From contig CAIZNP010000151.1 in assembly GCA_903934375.1 (NCBI GenBank), forward strand, positions 1 through 35,604: 35,604 nt of DNA, in the 5' to 3' direction. Both the position numbers and the translations under genes were made by a program. Under the pieces are notes generated by a model. The model saw nothing but the letters and a program-made list of their open reading frames with translations, was not told where the DNA came from and did not search any database. The DNA comes from an uncultured Synechococcaceae cyanobacterium. Its GTDB lineage: Bacteria > Cyanobacteriota > Cyanobacteriia > PCC-6307 > Cyanobiaceae. Positions within the stretch are counted from its first letter, which is position 1; every line of letters begins with the position of its first letter. This document shows positions 548 to 12,282 of this stretch, in pieces.

Positions 548-2485
548 TTGCAGCAGCAGGCCCAATGGCCTGGCGCGGTTTCTACTGTTCCCCTCACTCT
601 GCGAACACCCTGCGTGTCCTGGATCGGAACGGCCTGGCTGGTTCCCCTCTATCCCTTGGTTGGATCGGCCTTCAGCCTGCTGTGGTCGCCGGGGTTGATC
701 AAGCGCAGCGGCCCCAGGCCTGCCGGTTACATCAACCTGTTGATGGTGGCGATCGCCTTCGCCCACAGCCTGCTGGCCCTGATCAGCCTCAACAACAACT
801 CGGCGGCCGGGGCCTCAGCGATCTATGCCCCGCCCACCTTCGGCTGGACCTGGATCAACACCGCCGGCCTGCGCATTGGCTTCGATGGCCTGGTGAGCGA
901 GCCGGCCCTGATCGCCATGACGGTGATCACCGGTCTGCATGTGCTGGTGCAGATCTATTCCATTGGCTATCTGGAGATGGACTGGGGTTGGCCCCGCTTC
1001 TTCGGGGGCCTCAGTTTCTTTGAGGCCGGCCTGTGCGCCCTGGTGCTCACCGATTCGGTGTTCTTCAGCTACGTGCTGCTGGAGCTGCTCACCATCGGCA
1101 CCTACGTGATCGTGGGCACCTGGTACAACCAGTCGTTGGTGGTGAAGGGGGCCCGCGATGCCTTCCTCACCAAGCGCATCGGCGACATTGTGCTGCTGGC
1201 CGGGGTGATCGCCCTGCTGCCCCTCACCGGCACCTGGAATTTTCATGGCTTGCAGGGTTGGGCTGCCGACCTCACCAACAACGGCCAGCCCCTGCCCCCC
1301 GGCTTCCAGCTGATCCTGCTGGCCCTGATCGCCGGCCCGATGGGCAAGTGCGCCCAGATCCCTCTGCACCTCTGGCTGGATGAGGCGATGGAGAGCCCAC
1401 TGCCCTCCACGGTGCTGCGCAACTCCGTGGTGGTTCTGGGCGGAGCCTGGGTGCTGCTGCGCCTGGAGCCCCTGATCGAACTGAGCCCCCTGGTGCAGGG
1501 TGTGCTGGTGGTGGTGGGCGGCACCACGGCCCTGGTGGCGGCCCTGATCGCCCTGGGTCAGATCGATGTGAAGCGGGCGATGAGCTTCCTGGTGAGCAGC
1601 TGGCTTGGCCTGCTGTTCGTGGCCGTGGGCCTCGGCGGCATCGATGTGGCCGATCACCTGCTGCTCGTCTACCCCCTGCCGATGGCCCTGATGCTGATGG
1701 CGGTGGGGGCGATCGTGATCAGCAACGTGTCTCAGGACCTCACCCAGCTGGGGGGTCTGTGGAGTCGCCGGCCTCTGATCGGCATGGCCTTTCTGGCGGG
1801 AGCTTTTGGCCTGATGGCGCTGCCTCCCTTTGGTGGTTTTGCGGCCCTGCGCGAACTGCTGGAGCTGGCCATGGCCAGCAAGGCACCCGTGCTGCTGGGC
1901 GGCCTGGTGCTGATCACCAACACCCTGCTCTGCGCCTCGATGATGCGGGTCTTCGGCCTGATCTGGGGTGGCGTGCCCAAGGCATTCACCATCCGCTCGC
2001 CTGAGGTGCTGTGGCTGATGGTGCTGCCCACCCTGTTCCTCATGGGCCTCGTGCTGCACATCCCGCAACTGCTGCTGCATCTGGGGGTGTATCAGCTGAG
2101 CCCCCTGCCGGGCTGGGGGCCGCTCGGCTGGCCCCTGGTGGTGTCCACCCTGCTCGGCGCCGGCAGTTCGCTCTGGTTCTATCTGCGGCCGCACCCGCTG
2201 GCAGAACTTCCCGCCGGCCTCGGGGGCATCCAGCACTGGCTGGCAGAAGACATGCACACCGAGTCCTTTTATCACCGCACCGTGGTGGCCTTGGTGGTGG
2301 GTCTGGCCCGCTTCAGCGCCTGGAGCGACAGGGCTCTGGTGGATGGCTTCAGCAGTGGAACCGGTGGTGCTGCCATGGCTGGTGCCCGCCAGCTCAGCTT
2401 CACCACCAGCGGCAATTCCCAGGCCTATGCCCTCTCACTGGTGCTCGGTGTGCTGGTGATGTCGGCCTGGCTGCTCGCGCGTTGA
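548..2485 (+). CDS. ndhF: NAD(P)H-quinone oxidoreductase subunit F, CO2-uptake type (NdhF3/NdhF4 family)
   Basis: 645 aa polytopic protein with complex I antiporter-like motifs (LLELLTIGTYVIVGTWY, RDAFLTKRIGD, HLWLDEAMESPLPSTVLRNS), followed by ndhD and cup genes; exact start uncertain. Confidence 0.85.
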   Translation: MQQQAQWPGAVSTVPLTLRTPCVSWIGTAWLVPLYPLVGSAFSLLWSPGLIKRSGPRPAGYINLLMVAIAFAHSLLALISLNNNSAAGASAIYAPPTFGWTWINTAGLRIGFDGLVSEPALIAMTVITGLHVLVQIYSIGYLEMDWGWPRFFGGLSFFEAGLCALVLTDSVFFSYVLLELLTIGTYVIVGTWYNQSLVVKGARDAFLTKRIGDIVLLAGVIALLPLTGTWNFHGLQGWAADLTNNGQPLPPGFQLILLALIAGPMGKCAQIPLHLWLDEAMESPLPSTVLRNSVVVLGGAWVLLRLEPLIELSPLVQGVLVVVGGTTALVAALIALGQIDVKRAMSFLVSSWLGLLFVAVGLGGIDVADHLLLVYPLPMALMLMAVGAIVISNVSQDLTQLGGLWSRRPLIGMAFLAGAFGLMALPPFGGFAALRELLELAMASKAPVLLGGLVLITNTLLCASMMRVFGLIWGGVPKAFTIRSPEVLWLMVLPTLFLMGLVLHIPQLLLHLGVYQLSPLPGWGPLGWPLVVSTLLGAGSSLWFYLRPHPLAELPAGLGGIQHWLAEDMHTESFYHRTVVALVVGLARFSAWSDRALVDGFSSGTGGAAMAGARQLSFTTSGNSQAYALSLVLGVLVMSAWLLAR

Positions 2486-2498
2486 TCCGGAGGACACC

Positions 2499-3992
2499 AT
2501 GACCCTGCTGTTGCTGTTTCTGATTCCTCTGGGCGCCGCCTGCGGGCTGCAGCTCCTGCCGGCTGGAAGCCCATGGATCCGCCGCACGGCCCTGGCCGCG
2601 AGCCTGGCGCAACTCGTTACCGGTGTTGTGGCCTGGCGGGTGCCCCCCAGCGATCTCTCGCTGAGCTGGCTGCCCAAGCTGGGGCTGCGGCTGGATCTCG
2701 GGCTCGATGGCCTCAGCCTGCCGTTGGTGCTGCTGGCTGCCCTGATCACGGCCATGGCTGTGCTGACCACACCGCTGGATCAAACCCGCGCCCGCCTGTT
2801 CTACGGATTGCTGCTGGCCACCAATGTGGGCCTGATGGGGTCGTTCCTGGCCCGCAATGCCCTGCTGTTCGTGCTGGCCTATGAGCTGATCCTGATTCCC
2901 ACCACCCTGCTGGTGGCGATCTGGGGTGGTGAGCGTCGGGCTGGTGCCGCGATCCGATTCCTGATCTACGGAGCCGTGTCCGGCATCGCTCTCCTTGCCG
3001 CGGTGCTGGCCTTCGGCTGGCTCAACCCCGGCGGCCTGGATTTCAGCTTCTCGGCCCTGGCCAGCCACAACCTCACCCCGGATCAGCAACACATCCTGCT
3101 GGCCCTGGTGCTGCTGGCCTTCGGCCTCAAGCTGCCGGTGGTGCCGCTGCACGGCTGGCAACCGCTCACCTACAGCCAGGCCCCCACGCCGGTGGCGATG
3201 CTGCTGAGTGGTGCCGTGTCCAAGCTCGGGGCCTATGGCCTGCTGCGCTTCGGCATCGGCTTTCTGCCCGACGCCTGGAGCGATTGGTCGGCCTGGATTG
3301 CTGCCATCGGTGCGGTGAGTGCGATCTATGGCGCCCTGAATGCGATCGCGCAGCTGGATATGCGGCGTTTGGTGGCCTACAGCTCCCTGGGGCACATGGG
3401 CTTCCTGCTGCTGGCTCTGGCCGCCGCCACACCCCTGAGCCTGCAGGGGGTGATGGCCCAGATCCTGGCCCACGGATTGATCATCGCCCTGCTGTTCTGC
3501 CTGGTGGGTCTGGTGGAAACCAAGACAGGCACGGCGCAGATTCCTGAGCTTTCGGGTCTGTTGAATGCGCAGCGGGGTCTGCCGTTCACGATGGGCCTGA
3601 TGCTGATGGCCCTGATGGCCGCAGCCGGCGTGCCCGGCCAGGCCGGATTCGTGGCTGAGTTGCTGGTGTTTGAGGGCAGCTGGGTCGCCTATCCCATCCC
3701 GACGCTCGTCTGCCTGTTGTCGTCTGGGTTCACGGCCGTGTATGCGGTGCGCCTGTTCAACCGTGTGGGCTTCGGCCGACTCGACAACGCCAAGGCCAAC
3801 TGGGTCAGCACCAGCTGGACAGAGCGTGCTCCTGCCCTGGTGCTCACCGCTCTGGTGTTGGCGGGTGGCATCTGGCCCCCCCTGCTGACCGGCTTCAGTG
3901 AATCAGCCACCGCGCCCCTGGCCCTGCGTTCCAGTGAGTCGGTCACCGTGATCGCTCTTGCGCCCTCCTCCACGTTGCAGCTCCCCGCATGA
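2499..3992 (+). CDS. ndhD: NAD(P)H-quinone oxidoreductase subunit D, CO2-uptake type (NdhD3/NdhD4 family)
   Basis: 497 aa; YELILIPTTLLVAIWGGERR and LPVVPLHGWQPLTYSQAPTPVAMLLSGAVSKLGAYGLLRF are NdhD/NuoM signatures; GGAGG ribosome-binding site before ATG. Confidence 0.9.
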   Translation: MTLLLLFLIPLGAACGLQLLPAGSPWIRRTALAASLAQLVTGVVAWRVPPSDLSLSWLPKLGLRLDLGLDGLSLPLVLLAALITAMAVLTTPLDQTRARLFYGLLLATNVGLMGSFLARNALLFVLAYELILIPTTLLVAIWGGERRAGAAIRFLIYGAVSGIALLAAVLAFGWLNPGGLDFSFSALASHNLTPDQQHILLALVLLAFGLKLPVVPLHGWQPLTYSQAPTPVAMLLSGAVSKLGAYGLLRFGIGFLPDAWSDWSAWIAAIGAVSAIYGALNAIAQLDMRRLVAYSSLGHMGFLLLALAAATPLSLQGVMAQILAHGLIIALLFCLVGLVETKTGTAQIPELSGLLNAQRGLPFTMGLMLMALMAAAGVPGQAGFVAELLVFEGSWVAYPIPTLVCLLSSGFTAVYAVRLFNRVGFGRLDNAKANWVSTSWTERAPALVLTALVLAGGIWPPLLTGFSESATAPLALRSSESVTVIALAPSSTLQLPA

Positions 3993-5293
3993 CCGCCACC
4001 GTCGCCCCGGAGCGCACCCAGGCTTCGTTGATTCCCCCCTCCAGCCATCGCTATGCCGAGGTGATCCATCGCCTCGAGGCCGGTGGTTCGATGCTGCCGG
4101 ACTCAGAGGAGAACCTCAAGCAGATCATCGGCATCTACAAGGCCTATGCCGTGCCGATGGATTTCTACTGGCGCGATCTGCTTTACATCGCCGAGCGTGT
4201 CTTCCTGAATCCGCTGCCTGCCTTCAAGTACTTCATCTCGCAGGAGTACCTGGATCGCCCCAATAGTTACTCCGGTGATCAATCGAAGCTGCGCATCTGG
4301 CGTGGCACCGAGAAGGCCCATCCGGAGCTGCTTGAGTTCATGGCCCGCGGCGAAACCCGCGCCATGCCCAAGCTGCTGCATCACCTCTGGCACGACCGGG
4401 TGAACATGGAGTTCGCCGAGGCCTGCATGCAGGCGATGCTCTGGCACCAGGGCATGGGCGGCCGCTTCAACGATTACCTGGAGAGCGACGCCTACAAGGC
4501 CAACGCCGATCGGGCGATCAAGGCCTACTTCAAGGGCAACCCCCTGATGCTGGGTCTCTACAAGCTGTTCCCGGAGATGTTCCTGGAGCAGGTCCGCCAG
4601 CTTTCCTATTACGCCAACCTTGGCCTGGTCTGGGAGGTGATGGCGCCCGTGTTCTTCGAGATGAGCGACATCTACGACGAAGGCGGCTTCAAGGGTGTGC
4701 CTGATGCGATGGACTTCCTTGTGAATGGCATCTTTGCCGTTGCCGGCCGACCGATCTACCATCACCTCTATATCGGTGATGAGTGTTACGAGATCATCCC
4801 CAAGAGCGAGGGATTCACCTGGCTCTATGAGGCAGCACTGCCCTATGTGGAGGCGGTCTTCTACCGAACCGCACCGTTCCGCGGCACCAAGAGCTACAAC
4901 GCCCAGGCCGGCCAGGTGCCAGCTGATCAGGCTGACTTCCACTACGGCATCCTCTACGCCGATGTCTACCCCGTTGGCTCAGCCGGCATCCCGCCGACCC
5001 TGCTGATGCAGGACATGCTGCATTTCCTGCCCCTTTACCTGCGCGAGATCTATCGCGAGCATCGCCGTGGTGAGGAGGACGAGCTGGTGCAACTGGGCAT
5101 CACCTTCCAGCGCTCGATGTACAACGTGACCTCGGCTGTGATTCAGGCCCTGCGTTGCGCCCTGCTCTATCCGCTTGACGACACCGACCCCGAACACCTG
5201 ATGGCCAACCGCCGCTTCTTTGAGGCGCAGATGGACCGCTTCCTGCGGCCCGAGGCCCGTCTCCCCGACGTCCAGACCCAGGATTACCGCTGA
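3989..5293 (+). CDS. CO2 hydration protein, CupA/CupB (ChpY/ChpX) family
   Basis: 434 aa; ATGA overlap with ndh[66 protein letters not shown] is typical of this family. Confidence 0.9.
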
Positions 5294-5313
5294 GCCCCGC
5301 TGCGTCGAACCCG

Positions 5314-5715
5314 ATGGCCACGATTCTCGACACCGCCGCATCCGCTGGCGCTTTCAACACACTGCTGGCGGCCGTCGATGCCGCTGGTTTGCGCGGCGCG
5401 CTGGAGGGGCCTGGGCCGTTCACCGTGTTTGCGCCGGTGGATGAGGCCTTTGCAGCTCTCCCCCCTGGCACCGTGCAGACGCTGGTGGACAACCCGCCGC
5501 AGCTGGCCCGCATCCTCAAATATCACGTGCTGGCGGGTGCCCATTCCCAGTCTGAACTGGTAGCACAGCCCCAGTGGGACAGCCTGGAGGGAGCCCCGAT
5601 CCCGATCCGCCGAACCGAGCCGTTCGAGGTGAAGAATGCCACCGTTGTCAGTGCCGATATCGTTTGCGATAACGGCGTTGTGCACGTGATCGATCGCGTG
5701 ATCCTGCCGGGCTGA
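5314..5715 (+). CDS. fasciclin (FAS1) domain protein, CupS-like
   Basis: 133 aa; [45 protein letters not shown]…LKYHVLAG…[11 protein letters not shown] is FAS1; directly downstream of cup gene. Confidence 0.9.
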
Positions 5716-5748
5716 TCGGGCTGCCGGCGCAGCCAGGAGATCGCACTC

Positions 5749-6939
5749 ATGGGATCCTCGCTGCTCAGCATGCTGCTGTTGCTGCTGTTCGGCGTTCTGC
5801 TGGCGCGGCTCACGGCCTCCCGCCTGGCCCGTTGGGCGGTTCCGGCCATCGTGCTTGAGCTGCTGGTGGGGGTGGTGCTGGGCAACACCGTGCTCCCCTA
5901 CACCCGCATCGCACCGCTGGCTGGTCTCACCGAGTTGGGGGTGCTGAGCCTGTTCTTCCAGGTGGGGCTTGAGGTACGCGGCGGTCTGCTCGGATCGAGG
6001 CCGGCCAGCGTGCTGCGCACGGTGCTGCTGTCGGCCCTCACGCCACTGCTTCTCTGGTGGCCGCTGCAGCGGCTGTTCGGCCTCTCGACCCCCACCACTC
6101 TGCTGTGGCTGGCAGTGCTAGCTGCCACGGGCACCGGCGTGACCCTTCGGGCCCTCGCCGATGCGGGTGCACTGCACACGCCCTCGGGGCGGATGCTGCT
6201 CGGGGTCTCGGTGCTGGACGACCTGCCAGCGATCGGACTGCTCACCTTCTCGATGCTGCTCGTGGCCCCGCGTGCCCTGCCCGGTGCTGGCACCGCGGTG
6301 GTGGCCCCGCTGCTGGGCTTGGCGGTCATGCTGCTCAGCTTGCCCCTTAGCCGCTGCTGGCTGCAGCAGCGTGGGGCCTGGCGCCCGGGCCTGCTGGGGG
6401 TGCTCACCCTGCTGATCGGCTGCAGCTGGCTCGGTGAGCTGAGCGGCCTCACCAGTCTGCTGGGGGCGCTGTGGGGCGGTGTGCTGCTGCAGCGCCTGGC
6501 CCCGATGCCGGAGCAGGGGGATGCGGCCCGCGATCTGCGCGGCCAGCTGGCGCTGCTCTCGGAGGTGTTTCTGCCGCTCTATTTCCTGAGCGTGGGGATG
6601 CGGGTCCAGGCCTCCAGCCTGCTGCAGCCCGGCGCCTGGTGGATGGCCCTGGTGCTGCTGGTGCTGGCGCTCGTCAGCAAGCTGATCTGCGGCTTAGGGA
6701 TCGGCGCGGCCGACCGGGCTGCCGGTGTGGATCGCTGGCTGGTGGTGTTTGGTCTGATTCCCCGCGGTCTGCCGGGTCTGGTGTTCGCCTCCACCGCTTT
6801 GGCCGGCGGTCTGATCACGGCGCCCCAGTACGCCGCGCTGGTGCTCATGGTGAGTGCCACCACGGTTCTGGGACTGCTGTTGCTCGGCCGCCGTCTACAG
6901 GTCGTGATGAGTCAGTTCGCTGCAGATCGGCTAAATTGA
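5749..6939 (+). CDS. cation:proton antiporter (CPA2 / Na+/H+ exchanger family)
   Basis: 396 aa polytopic; ELLVGVVLGNTVLPY, LTELGVLSLFFQVGLEV, VLDDLPAIGLLTF, FLPLYFLSVGMRV. Confidence 0.85.
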   Translation: MGSSLLSMLLLLLFGVLLARLTASRLARWAVPAIVLELLVGVVLGNTVLPYTRIAPLAGLTELGVLSLFFQVGLEVRGGLLGSRPASVLRTVLLSALTPLLLWWPLQRLFGLSTPTTLLWLAVLAATGTGVTLRALADAGALHTPSGRMLLGVSVLDDLPAIGLLTFSMLLVAPRALPGAGTAVVAPLLGLAVMLLSLPLSRCWLQQRGAWRPGLLGVLTLLIGCSWLGELSGLTSLLGALWGGVLLQRLAPMPEQGDAARDLRGQLALLSEVFLPLYFLSVGMRVQASSLLQPGAWWMALVLLVLALVSKLICGLGIGAADRAAGVDRWLVVFGLIPRGLPGLVFASTALAGGLITAPQYAALVLMVSATTVLGLLLLGRRLQVVMSQFAADRLN

Positions 6940-6969
6940 GCCTGATTTGGACCTTCGACCCGTCCTCAA

Positions 6970-7010
6970 TTCAAGCGGCAAGTTTCAAGCGGTAAGTTAA
7001 GCGGTAAGGC
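6970..7010. repeat. imperfect tandem repeat: ttcaagcggcaagt / ttcaagcggtaagt / taagcggtaaggc
   Basis: Read directly; three copies of an approx. 13-14 bp unit in the intergenic region. Confidence 0.75.
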
Positions 7011-7025
7011 CTCACAAGCCGGTAA

Positions 7026-7054
7026 CCCTCCTGCGGACAACTCCATTCGGAGGG
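7026..7054 (+). promoter_or_regulatory. possible SD-sequestering stem CCCTCC…GGAGGG upstream of lipoprotein gene
   Basis: CCCTCC 7026-7031 pairs with GGAGGG 7049-7054; ATG at 7066. Confidence 0.35.
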
Positions 7055-7065
7055 CATGTAGCGCG

Positions 7066-7557
7066 ATGTACAGTGATCCCTGCCAATTCGATCAGCCGTG
7101 GCGGACGGGTGCTCTCGGCATGACCCTTGTGCTAGCTGGCGCTCTGCCGGGTTGTCTCACGGGAGGTGATCCTGCATCTCCCACCCACAGCCCCAACATG
7201 TATGACTGCCGCTTCCAGAACAACGGGCACCTGCATCTGCATCTTTCTCCCGCCCGTGGCAGCGGCAGCGTGATCACCGGTTACGAGCCCGGCCGCCAAG
7301 CGGACCATGCTGCCGATCTGCGGGCGGGCCGTGAAAGTGAGGGGCGTCTTGTGCAGCCGGGTCCAGGCAACCGCTACGCCGTTGAGCTGTTCCTGCTCAA
7401 TGACCATTTCGGCGAGCGCCCCAGTGAGAAGGTGGTGATCCGTGTCGGCGAGGATGGTCGCTCCCGGGTCGAAGCCACGGGCGTCGAAGTCAATCCACGC
7501 GTGATCGATTTCGGGACCTGCTCCAGCGCCGGCTACCAGCACAGCAGCGCCCACTGA
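7066..7557 (+). CDS. putative lipoprotein, hypothetical
   Basis: 163 aa; N-terminal hydrophobic segment ending in lipobox-like ALPGC. Confidence 0.65.
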   Translation: MYSDPCQFDQPWRTGALGMTLVLAGALPGCLTGGDPASPTHSPNMYDCRFQNNGHLHLHLSPARGSGSVITGYEPGRQADHAADLRAGRESEGRLVQPGPGNRYAVELFLLNDHFGERPSEKVVIRVGEDGRSRVEATGVEVNPRVIDFGTCSSAGYQHSSAH

Positions 7558-7655
7558 AGGGTCCTGAACGTTCGATGAGAGTGCCGGCAGACAGTCATCG
7601 AGGGGCTGTCTGGAGCGCTACCGTTCCCATGGACGAAGAAACGGATCGCTGACCT

Positions 7656-9119
7656 TTGGCTGGTTCCCGCCGCTGGATCGATCCCCTCCTCAGTCCCCGG
7701 ATCGCCAAGCCGGGCCTGCGCAAGCTGTGGGGCCTGATCTGGCGCCCCGAGTCAGTGCTGTGGCTCCTGCTCGCCAGCCTGCTGCTGCTGCCGGTGGTGA
7801 TGGTGAACTCCATGTCGGCCGCCACCGTGGCCCAGATGGAGCTCCAGGCCGATGAGATCTCCACCCTGGCCTCGGGGATCCGCGCTTACTACGCCGATAA
7901 CGTGATCGCCCGCCTTCAGGCCGCTGACGGCCAGGCGACATACTCGGAGAACTACCGCGACATCCACGGCGGCATCCCGATTCCGGCAACGCTCTCGATC
8001 GAGCTCGGCGCCCTGTTCGATAACGCGCACAGCGACGGGCGTATCTCCTACCATTTTCTTTCCGACTATCCCTTTGCCAAGAGGCTCTCCAAGCCGCTCG
8101 ATTCCTTCGAGCAGGAGGCGATCCAGTCCTTCCGCGTTGATCCGCAGCGCAAGACCTTCACCCAGCTCCGCGGCAATGGCCTCGGGCGCTCCTCCTATCG
8201 GCTGGCTACGCCGGTGATCATGCGTCCGGCCTGCGTTACGTGCCACAACGCCCACCCGGATTCCCCCAAGCGCGACTGGAAGGTCGGCGACGTCCGCGGC
8301 ATCCAGGAGGTGTCCGTCAACGGGTTGCAGGTGGATGGCTTCGGAAATCTCACCGGTCTGTTCGCCTACGTGGGCGTTGTGGGCCTCACCTCGGTGGCTG
8401 CCACCAGCGTGTTCCAGCGCCAGAGCCGGAAGCTCTCCCAGGCGAACCGCCAGCTGATGGATTCCAGTCAGCGCGAATCGAACCTGGCGGCCCGGCTGGC
8501 GGATCAGCTGCAGGAGCTTTCGATCTTCGGCAGCGTCGTGGACGACTCGGTGATTGGAATCACCATCGCCGACATGCGCAGGCCGGATGCGCCGCTGATC
8601 TACGTGAACAGTGCTTTCATCGCCATCACCGGCTACCCCCGCGATCTGGCGGTTGGCTATAACTGCCGCTTCCTACAGGGTCCGGAGACCGACCCAGCCG
8701 AACTCCAGATCCTCCGCGACGCCCTGAAAACGGGCCAGGCCTACAGCGGCGAGCTGATCAACTACAAACAGGACGGCACCCGGTTCTGGAATCGACTCAC
8801 TCTGTATCCGATTCGGCTCGGCGAAAACGACACCCCTGACTACTACGTCGCCAACCAGGTCGACGTCACAGCCCTCAGGCAGCGGTCGGGTCTGCCCCAA
8901 GGCACGCTGGATGCTCTCCAGCAGGACGCGGAGGACGCCCGGCTTGCTCTGCGCGATGCCGACCGCTTCTCGGAAGCCCTGCGCCAGCGCGTAACACAGT
9001 CTGACTCGAGCAGCCCTGAGGTGGAAGCCTTCTTGCTGGCGGATCAGCAGGCCCATGGCCGACTTCTTAAACTCATTGAAGCACTTCGGCGCCTGACGGC
9101 TAACGGACACCAGTTCTGA
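7656..9119 (+). CDS. membrane sensor: Tll0287/DUF3365-like domain with c-type heme motif plus C-terminal LOV (PAS) domain, no C-terminal enzymatic output domain
   Basis: 487 aa, TTG start; TM near N-terminus; CVTCHNAHPDSPKRDWKVGDVRGIQEV (CxxCH at nt 8232-8246); second TM; LOV signatures NSAFIAITGYPRD, GYNCRFLQG (Cys codon 8664-8666), ELINYKQDGTRFWNRL, YYVANQVDVT. Confidence 0.9.
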   Translation: MAGSRRWIDPLLSPRIAKPGLRKLWGLIWRPESVLWLLLASLLLLPVVMVNSMSAATVAQMELQADEISTLASGIRAYYADNVIARLQAADGQATYSENYRDIHGGIPIPATLSIELGALFDNAHSDGRISYHFLSDYPFAKRLSKPLDSFEQEAIQSFRVDPQRKTFTQLRGNGLGRSSYRLATPVIMRPACVTCHNAHPDSPKRDWKVGDVRGIQEVSVNGLQVDGFGNLTGLFAYVGVVGLTSVAATSVFQRQSRKLSQANRQLMDSSQRESNLAARLADQLQELSIFGSVVDDSVIGITIADMRRPDAPLIYVNSAFIAITGYPRDLAVGYNCRFLQGPETDPAELQILRDALKTGQAYSGELINYKQDGTRFWNRLTLYPIRLGENDTPDYYVANQVDVTALRQRSGLPQGTLDALQQDAEDARLALRDADRFSEALRQRVTQSDSSSPEVEAFLLADQQAHGRLLKLIEALRRLTANGHQF

Positions 9120-10324
9120 TGCCCGATCTGTCCAAGCCGCTGCTGCAAACGAATCGGTTTCTGCGCAACCTTCTGGTTGGCTTCTGGCTGGGAGGAGCTG
9201 CCCTTTGCACTGTGCTGCTCGGCACGATCGATCTGGTGGAGCGCCACCGCGAGGTGCTCAACGATGCCGAGCACGTGCGCGACGTCGTCGCGGCTTCCCT
9301 GATGACACCGATGGAGACGGCCAAGCGGCAGATGCTGCTGCAGTCGTATATCAACACCCCACGCGAGGACGAGCTGGATGGCATGAACCTGATGCTCGTT
9401 CTCAATGCCTCCGGTCGGGTGATCTACAGCTCAAGACCCAGTTGGCTGGGTCTGTCGGTCACTGACCCCCTGCTGAACCTCAGAGAGACCAGCGACCCCG
9501 ATTTCCAGGAACTGGCGGCCTGCTTCGGGCGAGCCGACCCCGACTGCATGACCTACAGCACCTCAGCCCTGGAGCTGCGACTCGGCAGCTTCACCGTGGT
9601 CCGGCCGCTGGAGCGTCCCTCCCGCGACATCGGCATCAGCCGCGAGAAGCTGCTGTTGGTGGCCAACTATGACCCCGGTGTTGTGCTGATCGACTACAGC
9701 CACGACCTGGTGATCCTGCTGCTCTCCAGCCTGGCCACCATGGGTGGTCTCACCCTGGTGCTGGCCTATCTGCTCTATTCATGGCTGCTGCCTCAGCTCA
9801 CCGAGACATCCCAAACCGACGGCCTGACCCAGCTGATCAATCGCAACCTGTTCATGGATCAGGCCAAGGAGCTGCTGGCCGAGGCGGAGGAGCGTCAGGC
9901 CGAGATGGTGTTCGCCATCCTCGACATCGATCATTTCAAGCTCATCAACGACACCTACGGCCACGCCTGCGGCGATGCTGCATTGGCCCATGTTTCGGCG
10001 ATTTTCCGCACGGTGACGCGGCCGGATGATCTGTTGTGCCGGTTTGGTGGCGAGGAGTTCGCCCTGCTGCTCAACGGCTCGCGTCAGGCCACCGGTCGCG
10101 CCCTGGATCGGATGCGGCTTCAGCTGGAGATGAGCCGCCTGACCTTCGCCGGACATCAGCTCAAGCTCACCGCTAGCTTCGGCGCTGCAGCCACGGCGGA
10201 TTGTGGCTACAACATCGATTATCTCTACACAACGGCCGATAAGGCCCTCTACATCGCCAAGCAGACCGGTCGCAACCGTCTGGAATGGAGCGATGGGCGG
10301 GTCCTCAGTCGGTTGGCCCGTTGA
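9119..10324 (+). CDS. membrane-anchored diguanylate cyclase (GGDEF domain)
   Basis: 401 aa; TGATG overlap with upstream gene; N-terminal and central TM segments flanking an extracytoplasmic region; DGLTQLINRN…LDIDHFKLINDTYGHACGD…RFGGEEFALLL with RPDD at I-site position. Confidence 0.92.
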   Translation: MPDLSKPLLQTNRFLRNLLVGFWLGGAALCTVLLGTIDLVERHREVLNDAEHVRDVVAASLMTPMETAKRQMLLQSYINTPREDELDGMNLMLVLNASGRVIYSSRPSWLGLSVTDPLLNLRETSDPDFQELAACFGRADPDCMTYSTSALELRLGSFTVVRPLERPSRDIGISREKLLLVANYDPGVVLIDYSHDLVILLLSSLATMGGLTLVLAYLLYSWLLPQLTETSQTDGLTQLINRNLFMDQAKELLAEAEERQAEMVFAILDIDHFKLINDTYGHACGDAALAHVSAIFRTVTRPDDLLCRFGGEEFALLLNGSRQATGRALDRMRLQLEMSRLTFAGHQLKLTASFGAAATADCGYNIDYLYTTADKALYIAKQTGRNRLEWSDGRVLSRLAR

Positions 10325-10329
10325 GCACC

Positions 10330-12282
10330 ATGCGCTTTCCCGCCATTCCAGAGGATGATCGGGCCCGGCTGCAGGAGTTGCATAGTTTCGGGGTGCTCGA
10401 TACAACCGCCGATCCCGATTTCGACGACATCACCGAGCTCACCCGCCGTGTGGCGGGCACTGAGATCGGCATCATCAGCCTCGTGGATCAGGATCGGCAG
10501 TGGTTCAAGAGCTGCGTCGGTGCCCCGCTGGCTCAGCAGGAAACACCACGCTCAATCTCGTTCTGCGGCCACACGATCCTGCAACGTGATCCGCTGATTA
10601 TTCCTGACGCCCGCGAGGATCCGCGCTTCGCCGATAACCCCCTGGTGGCCGGTGAGCCCGGGATCCGCTTCTACGCTGGCTTCCCATTGATCACCCCCAA
10701 CGGCTTCGCCCTCGGCAGCCTCTGCGCCATCAGCCGGCAGCCCCGGCAGCTCTCCCCCGGTCAGATTGACAGCCTGCGCCGTCTGGCCTCGATGACGGTC
10801 AATCACCTCGGCCACCTCCGCGAATCCGCCCTGCTGAATGCCTCGGAGCAATCGCTGAATGCGGAGCGCCTGAAGCAATCAAGCCTGAGGCAGGGCTTCG
10901 CCTCCCTCGATCAGCTGCTCAGCCGCGAGCAGTTGCTGCAGACGGTTGAGCTGATCATGGCGATGGAGGTGGGCTCCCCCTTCGCGCTGCTGCGCTGCCG
11001 CTTCCGCGACTACGACCGCATCAACGCCACCTTGGGCGGAGCGATCGCCGAGGAGTTCATCAACGAAGGTGCACGGCGGATGCTGGCGGCGGTGCCGCGC
11101 GGCAGCACCGTGGCCCGCTTCTCCGAAGCCGAGCTGGTGGTGCTGCTGCCATTCGACGAGGAAGATGCCGATGTGCAGCGGGCCGCGGAGCGGATCATCG
11201 GCTTCACCAACCAGACCTACCGCAGTGGCGCGCAGTCCCTGTCGATGGGGGTGGCCATCGGCATCGCCGTGTTCCGCCGCGACTACGACACGGTGGAGGC
11301 GATCCTGGCCGACACGAGCATGGCCGTACGGCTGGCGCTGCGTTCCGCCGGCAGCGCCTTCCGCTTCATCGACGCCGAAACACGGGTGCTGGCACGCGAG
11401 ACCTATCGGCTTGAATCCGATCTGCGCGAAGCCCTCAAGAACCGCCTGCTCGAGACCCACCTCCAGCCGATCGTGGATCTCAGCAGCGGCGAGCCAGTCG
11501 GCTTCGAGGCCCTGGCGCGCTGGCAGCGGGGCGATCAGTTGCTCAGTCCGGCCGCCTTCCTGCCGACGCTCAACGAGGGTGGCGTCACCGGCGAGCTCGA
11601 TCTGCTGATCATCGAGAAGGCGCTTGCCGCCGTGCCCCTGCTGGCCCTGCCCATCCCTCAGCGGCCGATGACGATGAGCGTCAACCTCTCCGGGATCCTG
11701 CTGGAGGAGCCCGATCTGCGTGCCCGTCTGCTGCAGCTGATCGAAGACAACCCGCTGCCGATCGGCTGGACCCTGCAGGTGGAGCTGCTGGAGGATGCCT
11801 TCCAGGACAGCAGCCCCGCCTTCGATCACTTCCTCGAACAGCTCGTGGCCCGATCGGTGGCCATCGCCATCGATGATTTCGGCACCGGCTATTCCTCTCT
11901 GGCCCGACTGATTTCCCTGCCGATCCATGCGGTGAAGATGGATCGCGCCTTCGTGCTGCGTCTGGATGAGGCGAGCGAATCGCCGCGCACCCTCCTGCGC
12001 ACCATGCTCACCATGCTCAACGACCTGGGCCTCGCCGTGACGGCCGAGGGGGTGGAAACCGCCACTCAGAAGCGATGGTTGCTCGATCAGGGCGTCCGCA
12101 AGGCCCAGGGTTACCTGTTCCACACGCCCCTGCCGGTGGATGCGGCGATTGAACTGCTGCAGGCGCTCGACTACCGCCCCAGAGCCATTCCCGTGGATCC
12201 CCGCCGGCTCAAGGCGATCCGGCGCCGGCGACAATCGTTCTGGCGCCTGCCCTTCTTCGACCGTCGCCAGCCCGGCGGATGA
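10330..12282 (+). CDS. GAF - degenerate GGDEF - EAL protein (putative c-di-GMP phosphodiesterase)
   Basis: Track ORF begins 10285; ATG at 10330 (MRFPAIPEDDRARLQELHSFGVLDT) matches a typical GAF N-terminus. GGDEF position reads ARFSEAELVVL; EAL region retains FEALARW, MSVNLSG, IDDFGTGYSSL, VKMDRAFV, TAEGVET. Confidence 0.92.
   Translation: MRFPAIPEDDRARLQELHSFGVLDTTADPDFDDITELTRRVAGTEIGIISLVDQDRQWFKSCVGAPLAQQETPRSISFCGHTILQRDPLIIPDAREDPRFADNPLVAGEPGIRFYAGFPLITPNGFALGSLCAISRQPRQLSPGQIDSLRRLASMTVNHLGHLRESALLNASEQSLNAERLKQSSLRQGFASLDQLLSREQLLQTVELIMAMEVGSPFALLRCRFRDYDRINATLGGAIAEEFINEGARRMLAAVPRGSTVARFSEAELVVLLPFDEEDADVQRAAERIIGFTNQTYRSGAQSLSMGVAIGIAVFRRDYDTVEAILADTSMAVRLALRSAGSAFRFIDAETRVLARETYRLESDLREALKNRLLETHLQPIVDLSSGEPVGFEALARWQRGDQLLSPAAFLPTLNEGGVTGELDLLIIEKALAAVPLLALPIPQRPMTMSVNLSGILLEEPDLRARLLQLIEDNPLPIGWTLQVELLEDAFQDSSPAFDHFLEQLVARSVAIAIDDFGTGYSSLARLISLPIHAVKMDRAFVLRLDEASESPRTLLRTMLTMLNDLGLAVTAEGVETATQKRWLLDQGVRKAQGYLFHTPLPVDAAIELLQALDYRPRAIPVDPRRLKAIRRRRQSFWRLPFFDRRQPGG

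Follow-up and report, generated by a model that had tools for sequence, protein, structure and literature searches.

A heme-LOV sensor gene in a conserved operon with c-di-GMP synthesis and breakdown genes in freshwater picocyanobacteria

We describe a three-gene operon of Cyanobiaceae in which a gene for a membrane sensor with a Tll0287-type heme domain and a LOV domain is followed by genes for a predicted diguanylate cyclase and a predicted c-di-GMP phosphodiesterase. Because the sensor has no enzyme of its own, we propose, with a probability of roughly 0.6, that the three proteins form a c-di-GMP switch in which the dual sensor acts on its operon partners by contact. Briefly, the gene 1 product, probably a dimer, would read NO (the likeliest signal) or redox state through an extracytoplasmic heme-c Cache domain and blue light through its cytoplasmic LOV domain, and both inputs would converge on a single helical signalling spine. 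The signal would then pass by direct contact, through a C-terminal helical hairpin, the membrane helices or both, to the product of gene 2, an adjacent membrane diguanylate cyclase that is probably translationally coupled to the sensor, and possibly also to the soluble product of gene 3, shifting the balance between c-di-GMP synthesis and breakdown. A precedent is the stand-alone BLUF photoreceptor PapB, which acts on an EAL partner, PapA (PMC8846402).

The operon and its conservation

The window, by which we mean the whole stretch of 35,604 nucleotides analysed, comes from a freshwater picocyanobacterium and contains three codirectional genes at 7656–12282, in the order sensor, GGDEF, EAL; these and the features given below in the form start..end lie on the + strand. 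Gene 1 (7656..9119) encodes a heme-Cache (Tll0287) domain, a transmembrane segment (TM), a coiled coil and a LOV domain, with no catalytic domain (Pfam, alignment and structural model). Its start codon is a TTG at 7656; an in-frame stop at 7650 makes a start further upstream impossible, and the exact start is uncertain in that a later one is possible. Genes 1 and 2 overlap as TGATG, the first base of the gene 2 ATG (9119) being the last of the gene 1 TGA, and the ATG of gene 3, at 10330, lies 5 bp past the gene 2 stop. Just upstream of gene 1, at 7066–7557, is a gene for a 163-aa lipoprotein-like protein with no match in Pfam or NCBIfam, and such a gene is likewise found in L032, L040 and L049.

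The arrangement recurs in relatives. Among 251 sampled Cyanobiaceae genomes, 12 (that of the window included) carry full-length relatives of gene 1, at 15 loci when paralogs are counted. A GGDEF gene lies directly 3' of the sensor gene in all of these loci, and an EAL gene is third in all but one of those with enough sequence, the exception being L038/L061, which has a different GGDEF-EAL gene there on the opposite strand. The GTDB collection adds Cyanobium sp. FGCU52, whose contig stops after gene 1, as well as Cruz CV13-4-11 and CZS25K, both with the same gene order. Gene 2 is thus next to gene 1 in 17/17 Cyanobiaceae loci with downstream sequence. Because this order is kept in relatives while the 2.7-Mb host genome has just 18 matches to GGDEF and 10 to EAL, the three-gene arrangement is not chance. 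An initial annotation of this DNA had given the coordinates and junctions of all three open reading frames, which re-reading bore out, and had set conservation of gene order beforehand as a test, which the linkage passed for gene 2 at every locus with enough sequence and for gene 3 at all but one of these. Across the phylum, 386 genomes yielded no full-length gene 1 match outside Cyanobiaceae; the other proteins, among the matches listed, cover only half of it.

The heme-LOV sensor and its relatives

The N-terminus of gene 1 carries positive charge ahead of TM1 (~aa 33–52; 7752..7811), which predicts that it lies inside; TM1 itself is a hydrophobic stretch kept in the alignment. There follows a Tll0287/DUF3365 (sCache_heme) domain (aa 59–221; 7830..8318) that matches PF11845 at 7.5e-21 and 75.5 bits, against a curated cut-off of 24.1; 15/15 homologs match this family too. 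Its c-type heme motif, CVTCH (aa 193–197; 8232..8246), has C193, C196 and H197 invariant in the 15 homologs. With this score and the CxxCH, gene 1 falls by sequence among Tll0287-like, or sCache_heme, proteins and is predicted to bind heme covalently. TM2 (~aa 232–253; 8349..8414) runs on into a signalling helix that ends at aa 293. In a structural model of moderate confidence (mean pLDDT 68.8), TM1 is a long helix, the heme domain is mixed alpha/beta, helix 232–293 exits the membrane and leads into the LOV domain, and a two-helix hairpin forms the C-terminus. A sequence search of the PDB with the heme domain alone gave no match at E<=1, and for this reason we used no solved template for it.

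The LOV domain (aa 295–406; 8538..8873) matches PAS_9 in Pfam (4.7e-17, aa 310–406) and Chlamydomonas phototropin LOV1 by phmmer (4.8e-29), in an alignment that pairs NCRFLQG and the remaining flavin-contact residues; Foldseek aligns its predicted structure to CrPhotLOV1 entries at TM-scores of 0.87–0.89. In and around the photo-adduct motif GYNCRFLQG (Cys337; 8655..8681), the residues N336, C337, R338, F339, L340, N369, N379 and Q401 are invariant in the 15 homologs. The domain thus has the NCRFLQ, the adduct Cys and the flavin-contact Asn and Gln that mark a photoreceptor, and a photocycle is predicted. Pfam found no output or catalytic domain in gene 1 and no H-box or HATPase_c, so the protein does not qualify as a sensor histidine kinase.

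Which signal the heme might read can be approached through its ligands. A 2026 preprint moved the DUF3365/Tll0287 family, about 99% of whose members carry CxxCH, from the PAS to the Cache domains, with heme c covalently attached (PMC12889525). In that work, a signalling-type member without an axial Cys bound NO tightly and formed no stable oxy complex, and a stand-alone Tll0287-type member with an axial Cys showed redox-like behaviour. The extracytoplasmic part of gene 1 has Cys only within CVTCH and so lacks an axial Cys, and the 15 homologs share no further invariant Cys ahead of that of the LOV domain; with TM2 and LOV following, the protein fits the signalling, NO-type class. Because its heme domain has no Cys beyond CVTCH, our first guess for the heme input is NO, with redox as the main rival, although this assignment has a thin base in that it leans on one homolog tested in the preprint.

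In a few Betaproteobacteria, Rubrivivax (L062) and Macromonas (L063), the same heme-TM-LOV sensor is joined to a histidine kinase, and both proteins retain CxxCH and the LOV Cys (LOV motifs HNCRFLKG and RNCRFLQG). The heme-LOV kinase is rare: a sample of 351 genomes from the Macromonas family contained it in 2. The Macromonas genome carries two copies of its gene head-to-tail (L159 and L161; G581:C160:10353-14247). Two further loci, L064 and L065, encode a heme-PAS protein that has neither an output domain nor the LOV Cys, and in L064 its gene overlaps that of a membrane histidine kinase, a split layout like that of genes 1 and 2 with another output. In a tree of heme domains, gene 1 of Cyanobiaceae joins Rubrivivax L062 (97/97) and not the three Tll0287 cyclases from Cyanobiaceae that the tree also contained, although the Rubrivivax grouping is uncertain owing to long branches. 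Gene 1 probably shares descent with the heme-LOV histidine kinase, and the direct kinase fusion in Betaproteobacteria supports a signalling role for its sensor. In other Cyanobiaceae genomes, proteins at L045 and L047 join a Tll0287 domain to the catalytic domain of an adenylate/guanylate cyclase.

The C-terminal helical hairpin of gene 1 (8877..9113) weakly resembles the DHp hairpin of the betaproteobacterial heme-LOV kinases, aligning to it gap-free directly past the H-box. The hhalign score is 24.0 at a probability of 20%, whereas none of 200 column shuffles scores above 14.9 and reversed profiles reach about 11. Between subclades the hairpin is divergent. We suggest that gene 1 could be the sensor half of a heme-LOV kinase, retained as a partner-binding module. 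Many cyanobacterial LOV proteins matched a gene 1 profile into the C-terminus; on inspection these proved to be kinases, cyclases and PAS chains of ordinary, different types, and were dropped as evidence of common origin for that reason.

The two enzymes and the case for contact signalling

Gene 2 (9119..10324) encodes a membrane diguanylate cyclase (GGDEF, 4.3e-42 in Pfam) with an unclassified extracytoplasmic domain. The active-site motif GGEEF (10046..10060) is invariant in 13 homologs, and the I-site, RPDD (10019..10030), is RxxD in 10/13. In a model of the protein (pLDDT 85), TM1 and TM2 flank a small alpha/beta domain outside the cytoplasm, and an unbroken helix, 186–232, leads into the GGDEF domain; the best structural match of the model in Foldseek is the coiled-coil protein DgcB. 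The GG(D/E)EF A-site, the domain score and the DgcB match together are those expected of an active cyclase. The extracytoplasmic domain matched no Pfam family in the 13 homologs, and its Foldseek matches, among those listed, are GGDEF proteins only. Two Cys in this domain, C135 and C143, are invariant and perhaps form a disulfide switch.

Gene 3 (10330..12282) encodes a soluble protein with GAF (10420..10794; 3.5e-16), degenerate GGDEF (10912..11334; 2.1e-14) and EAL (11419..12129; 5.8e-53) domains, as assigned by Pfam and alignment. The sequence FSEAEL replaces GGDEF, and the EAL domain has complete metal and catalytic residues: E393, N452, E485, D515, D516, K536, E573 and Q593 are invariant in homologs, and E-N-E-DD-K-E-Q is what we take to be the catalytic set of EAL enzymes. 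Gene 3 is thus predicted to be an active phosphodiesterase. Its GAF domain is shrunken or missing in a divergent subclade and is therefore not core.

These results agree with the initial annotation on all three proteins. It had read gene 1 as a TM, a Tll0287/DUF3365 region with CVTCH, a second TM, a coiled coil and a LOV domain with no output, gene 2 as a GGEEF diguanylate cyclase with an RxxD I-site (now specified as RPDD), and gene 3 as GAF, GGDEF* and EAL; Pfam concurs on the domains of all three. Its broader reading, of an output-less heme and LOV protein tied to c-di-GMP genes, stands as far as domains, invariant residues and gene order are concerned, and the contact signalling and redox or gas input that it advanced are still proposals here; it had not mentioned the betaproteobacterial kinase relatives.

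A feature that weighs against a contact switch is the extracytoplasmic domain of gene 2, which is conserved, has the two invariant Cys and could allow gene 2 to sense independently. If it does, the three proteins may be co-expressed and otherwise independent, with gene 2 sensing through this domain, gene 3 through its GAF domain and gene 1 signalling to another partner without contacting either. We consider this unlikely: gene 1 is output-less, its adjacency to gene 2 is kept over distinct genomic sites and subclades, and the operon is still there in the divergent subclade in which the GAF domain of gene 3 is reduced or lost. A further reading is that one of the two sensors is vestigial: the LOV domain would be a PAS that serves purely for dimerisation, or the heme domain would be an anchor. 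The betaproteobacterial proteins L064–L067 have lost the LOV Cys motif and are still Tll0287 proteins, with CxxCH in L066 and L067. In Cyanobiaceae, however, both cofactor motifs are invariant in 15/15 aligned gene 1 homologs at 50–71% identity, diverged paralogs included, and we regard a vestigial sensor as very unlikely.

The alternative to which we give somewhat more weight, while still judging it rather unlikely, concerns the nature of the input: the heme domain may be a redox sensor or an electron-transfer site coupled to lumenal or periplasmic carriers, and the LOV domain may likewise sense redox state through its flavin. Electron carriers on the p-side are abundant in cyanobacteria. Stand-alone Tll0287-type domains, moreover, behave like redox proteins (PMC12889525), but the axial Cys of that redox type is absent from gene 1, and its fusion to a TM, a coiled coil and LOV is that of the signalling class in the same work.

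Linkage to CO2 uptake and comparison with known systems

A CO2-hydrating NDH-1 cluster, ndhF4-ndhD4-cupB (548..5293), is the upstream neighbour of the operon in the window and lies outside it. NCBIfam identifies chpXY CO2 hydration protein (1.7e-220) and the NdhF3 family (1.7e-200); we infer the names ndhF4 and ndhD4 from position beside cupB. The operon, not mentioned in this connection by the initial annotation, is found beside or inside this cluster in 8 loci, with at least three insertion points and always codirectional (among them the window, 548–12282, and L034, L035, L056, L032, L036 and L049). It sits between the antiporter gene and bioA in the window, between ndhF4 and ndhD4 on the same strand in G243, G062 and CZS25K (smallest gap, 37 bp), and upstream of ndhF4 in G203 and G150; in Cyanobium sp. 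FGCU52 the cup cluster is upstream of the operon, as in the window. Genomes with the operon elsewhere, G195, G158 and G223, have the order ndhF4-ndhD4-cupB-fasciclin-antiporter-bioA, with the cluster 12 kb upstream of the operon in G223, which is counted among the eight linked loci. The operon and cluster are on different contigs in G250, no close cupB ortholog was found in G140, and none of the six diverged paralog loci is linked to the cup cluster. Four genomes have another GGDEF-containing gene (31–36% identity to gene 2) at the edge of the cup-fasciclin cluster (L164:3711-5384, L165:5670-7898, L167:1782-4040 and L168:12431-13906).

Its repeated occurrence in a single island suggests that the operon is co-expressed with CO2 uptake, though the linkage could also stem from a common integration preference or from ancestral proximity and later rearrangement. 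We hold it doubtful, but worth stating, that the heme and blue-light c-di-GMP switch is co-expressed with NDH-1MS' (ndhF4-ndhD4-cupB) and tunes it or is tuned by it. If true, c-di-GMP would tie carbon acquisition to light and to NO or redox state. No paper connecting c-di-GMP with cupB came up in a literature search, and the linkage is a concrete lead that the two may be coupled in freshwater picocyanobacteria.

The components of the operon are of known kinds; the combination of the heme-LOV fusion with the split operon is new. In the open-licence literature, where absence is weak evidence, we found no paper on a DUF3365-LOV fusion or a cyanobacterial heme-LOV protein. With a covalent heme and a photoactive flavin predicted on opposite sides of the membrane, the single sensor polypeptide would make a natural two-input gate for c-di-GMP, one in which integration of gas or redox state with blue light becomes directly testable. 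The operon also offers a naturally split sensor-cyclase pair to compare with kinase-fused relatives: the Rubrivivax and Macromonas proteins share Tll0287-TM-LOV and both motifs with gene 1, but have a fused kinase and no c-di-GMP operon.

Among heme sensors, H-NOX and NosP are cytoplasmic and unrelated to gene 1, with neither covalent heme c nor a light sensor. They resemble it as auxiliary heme NO sensors, a role that gene 1 may share, which tune c-di-GMP directly or via a kinase (PMC8846402). The sCache_heme (PF11845) proteins share with gene 1 the CxxCH, an extracytoplasmic Cache fold flanked by TMs and a signalling class without axial Cys (PMC12889525); to these gene 1 adds LOV, a word absent from the main text of that work, and it has no fused output. 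Cyanobacterial LOV control of c-di-GMP is represented by SL2 of Synechococcus elongatus, a LOV-GGDEF-EAL blue-light phosphodiesterase (Cao et al. 2010, cited in PMC8846402); SL2 is a single polypeptide, with no heme domain described, whereas three proteins are encoded here. A parallel in logic to the contact switch that we propose is PapB-PapA of Rhodopseudomonas palustris, which likewise pairs an output-less blue-light receptor with a separate c-di-GMP enzyme, but uses BLUF instead of LOV and has neither a heme nor a cyclase partner (PMC8846402).
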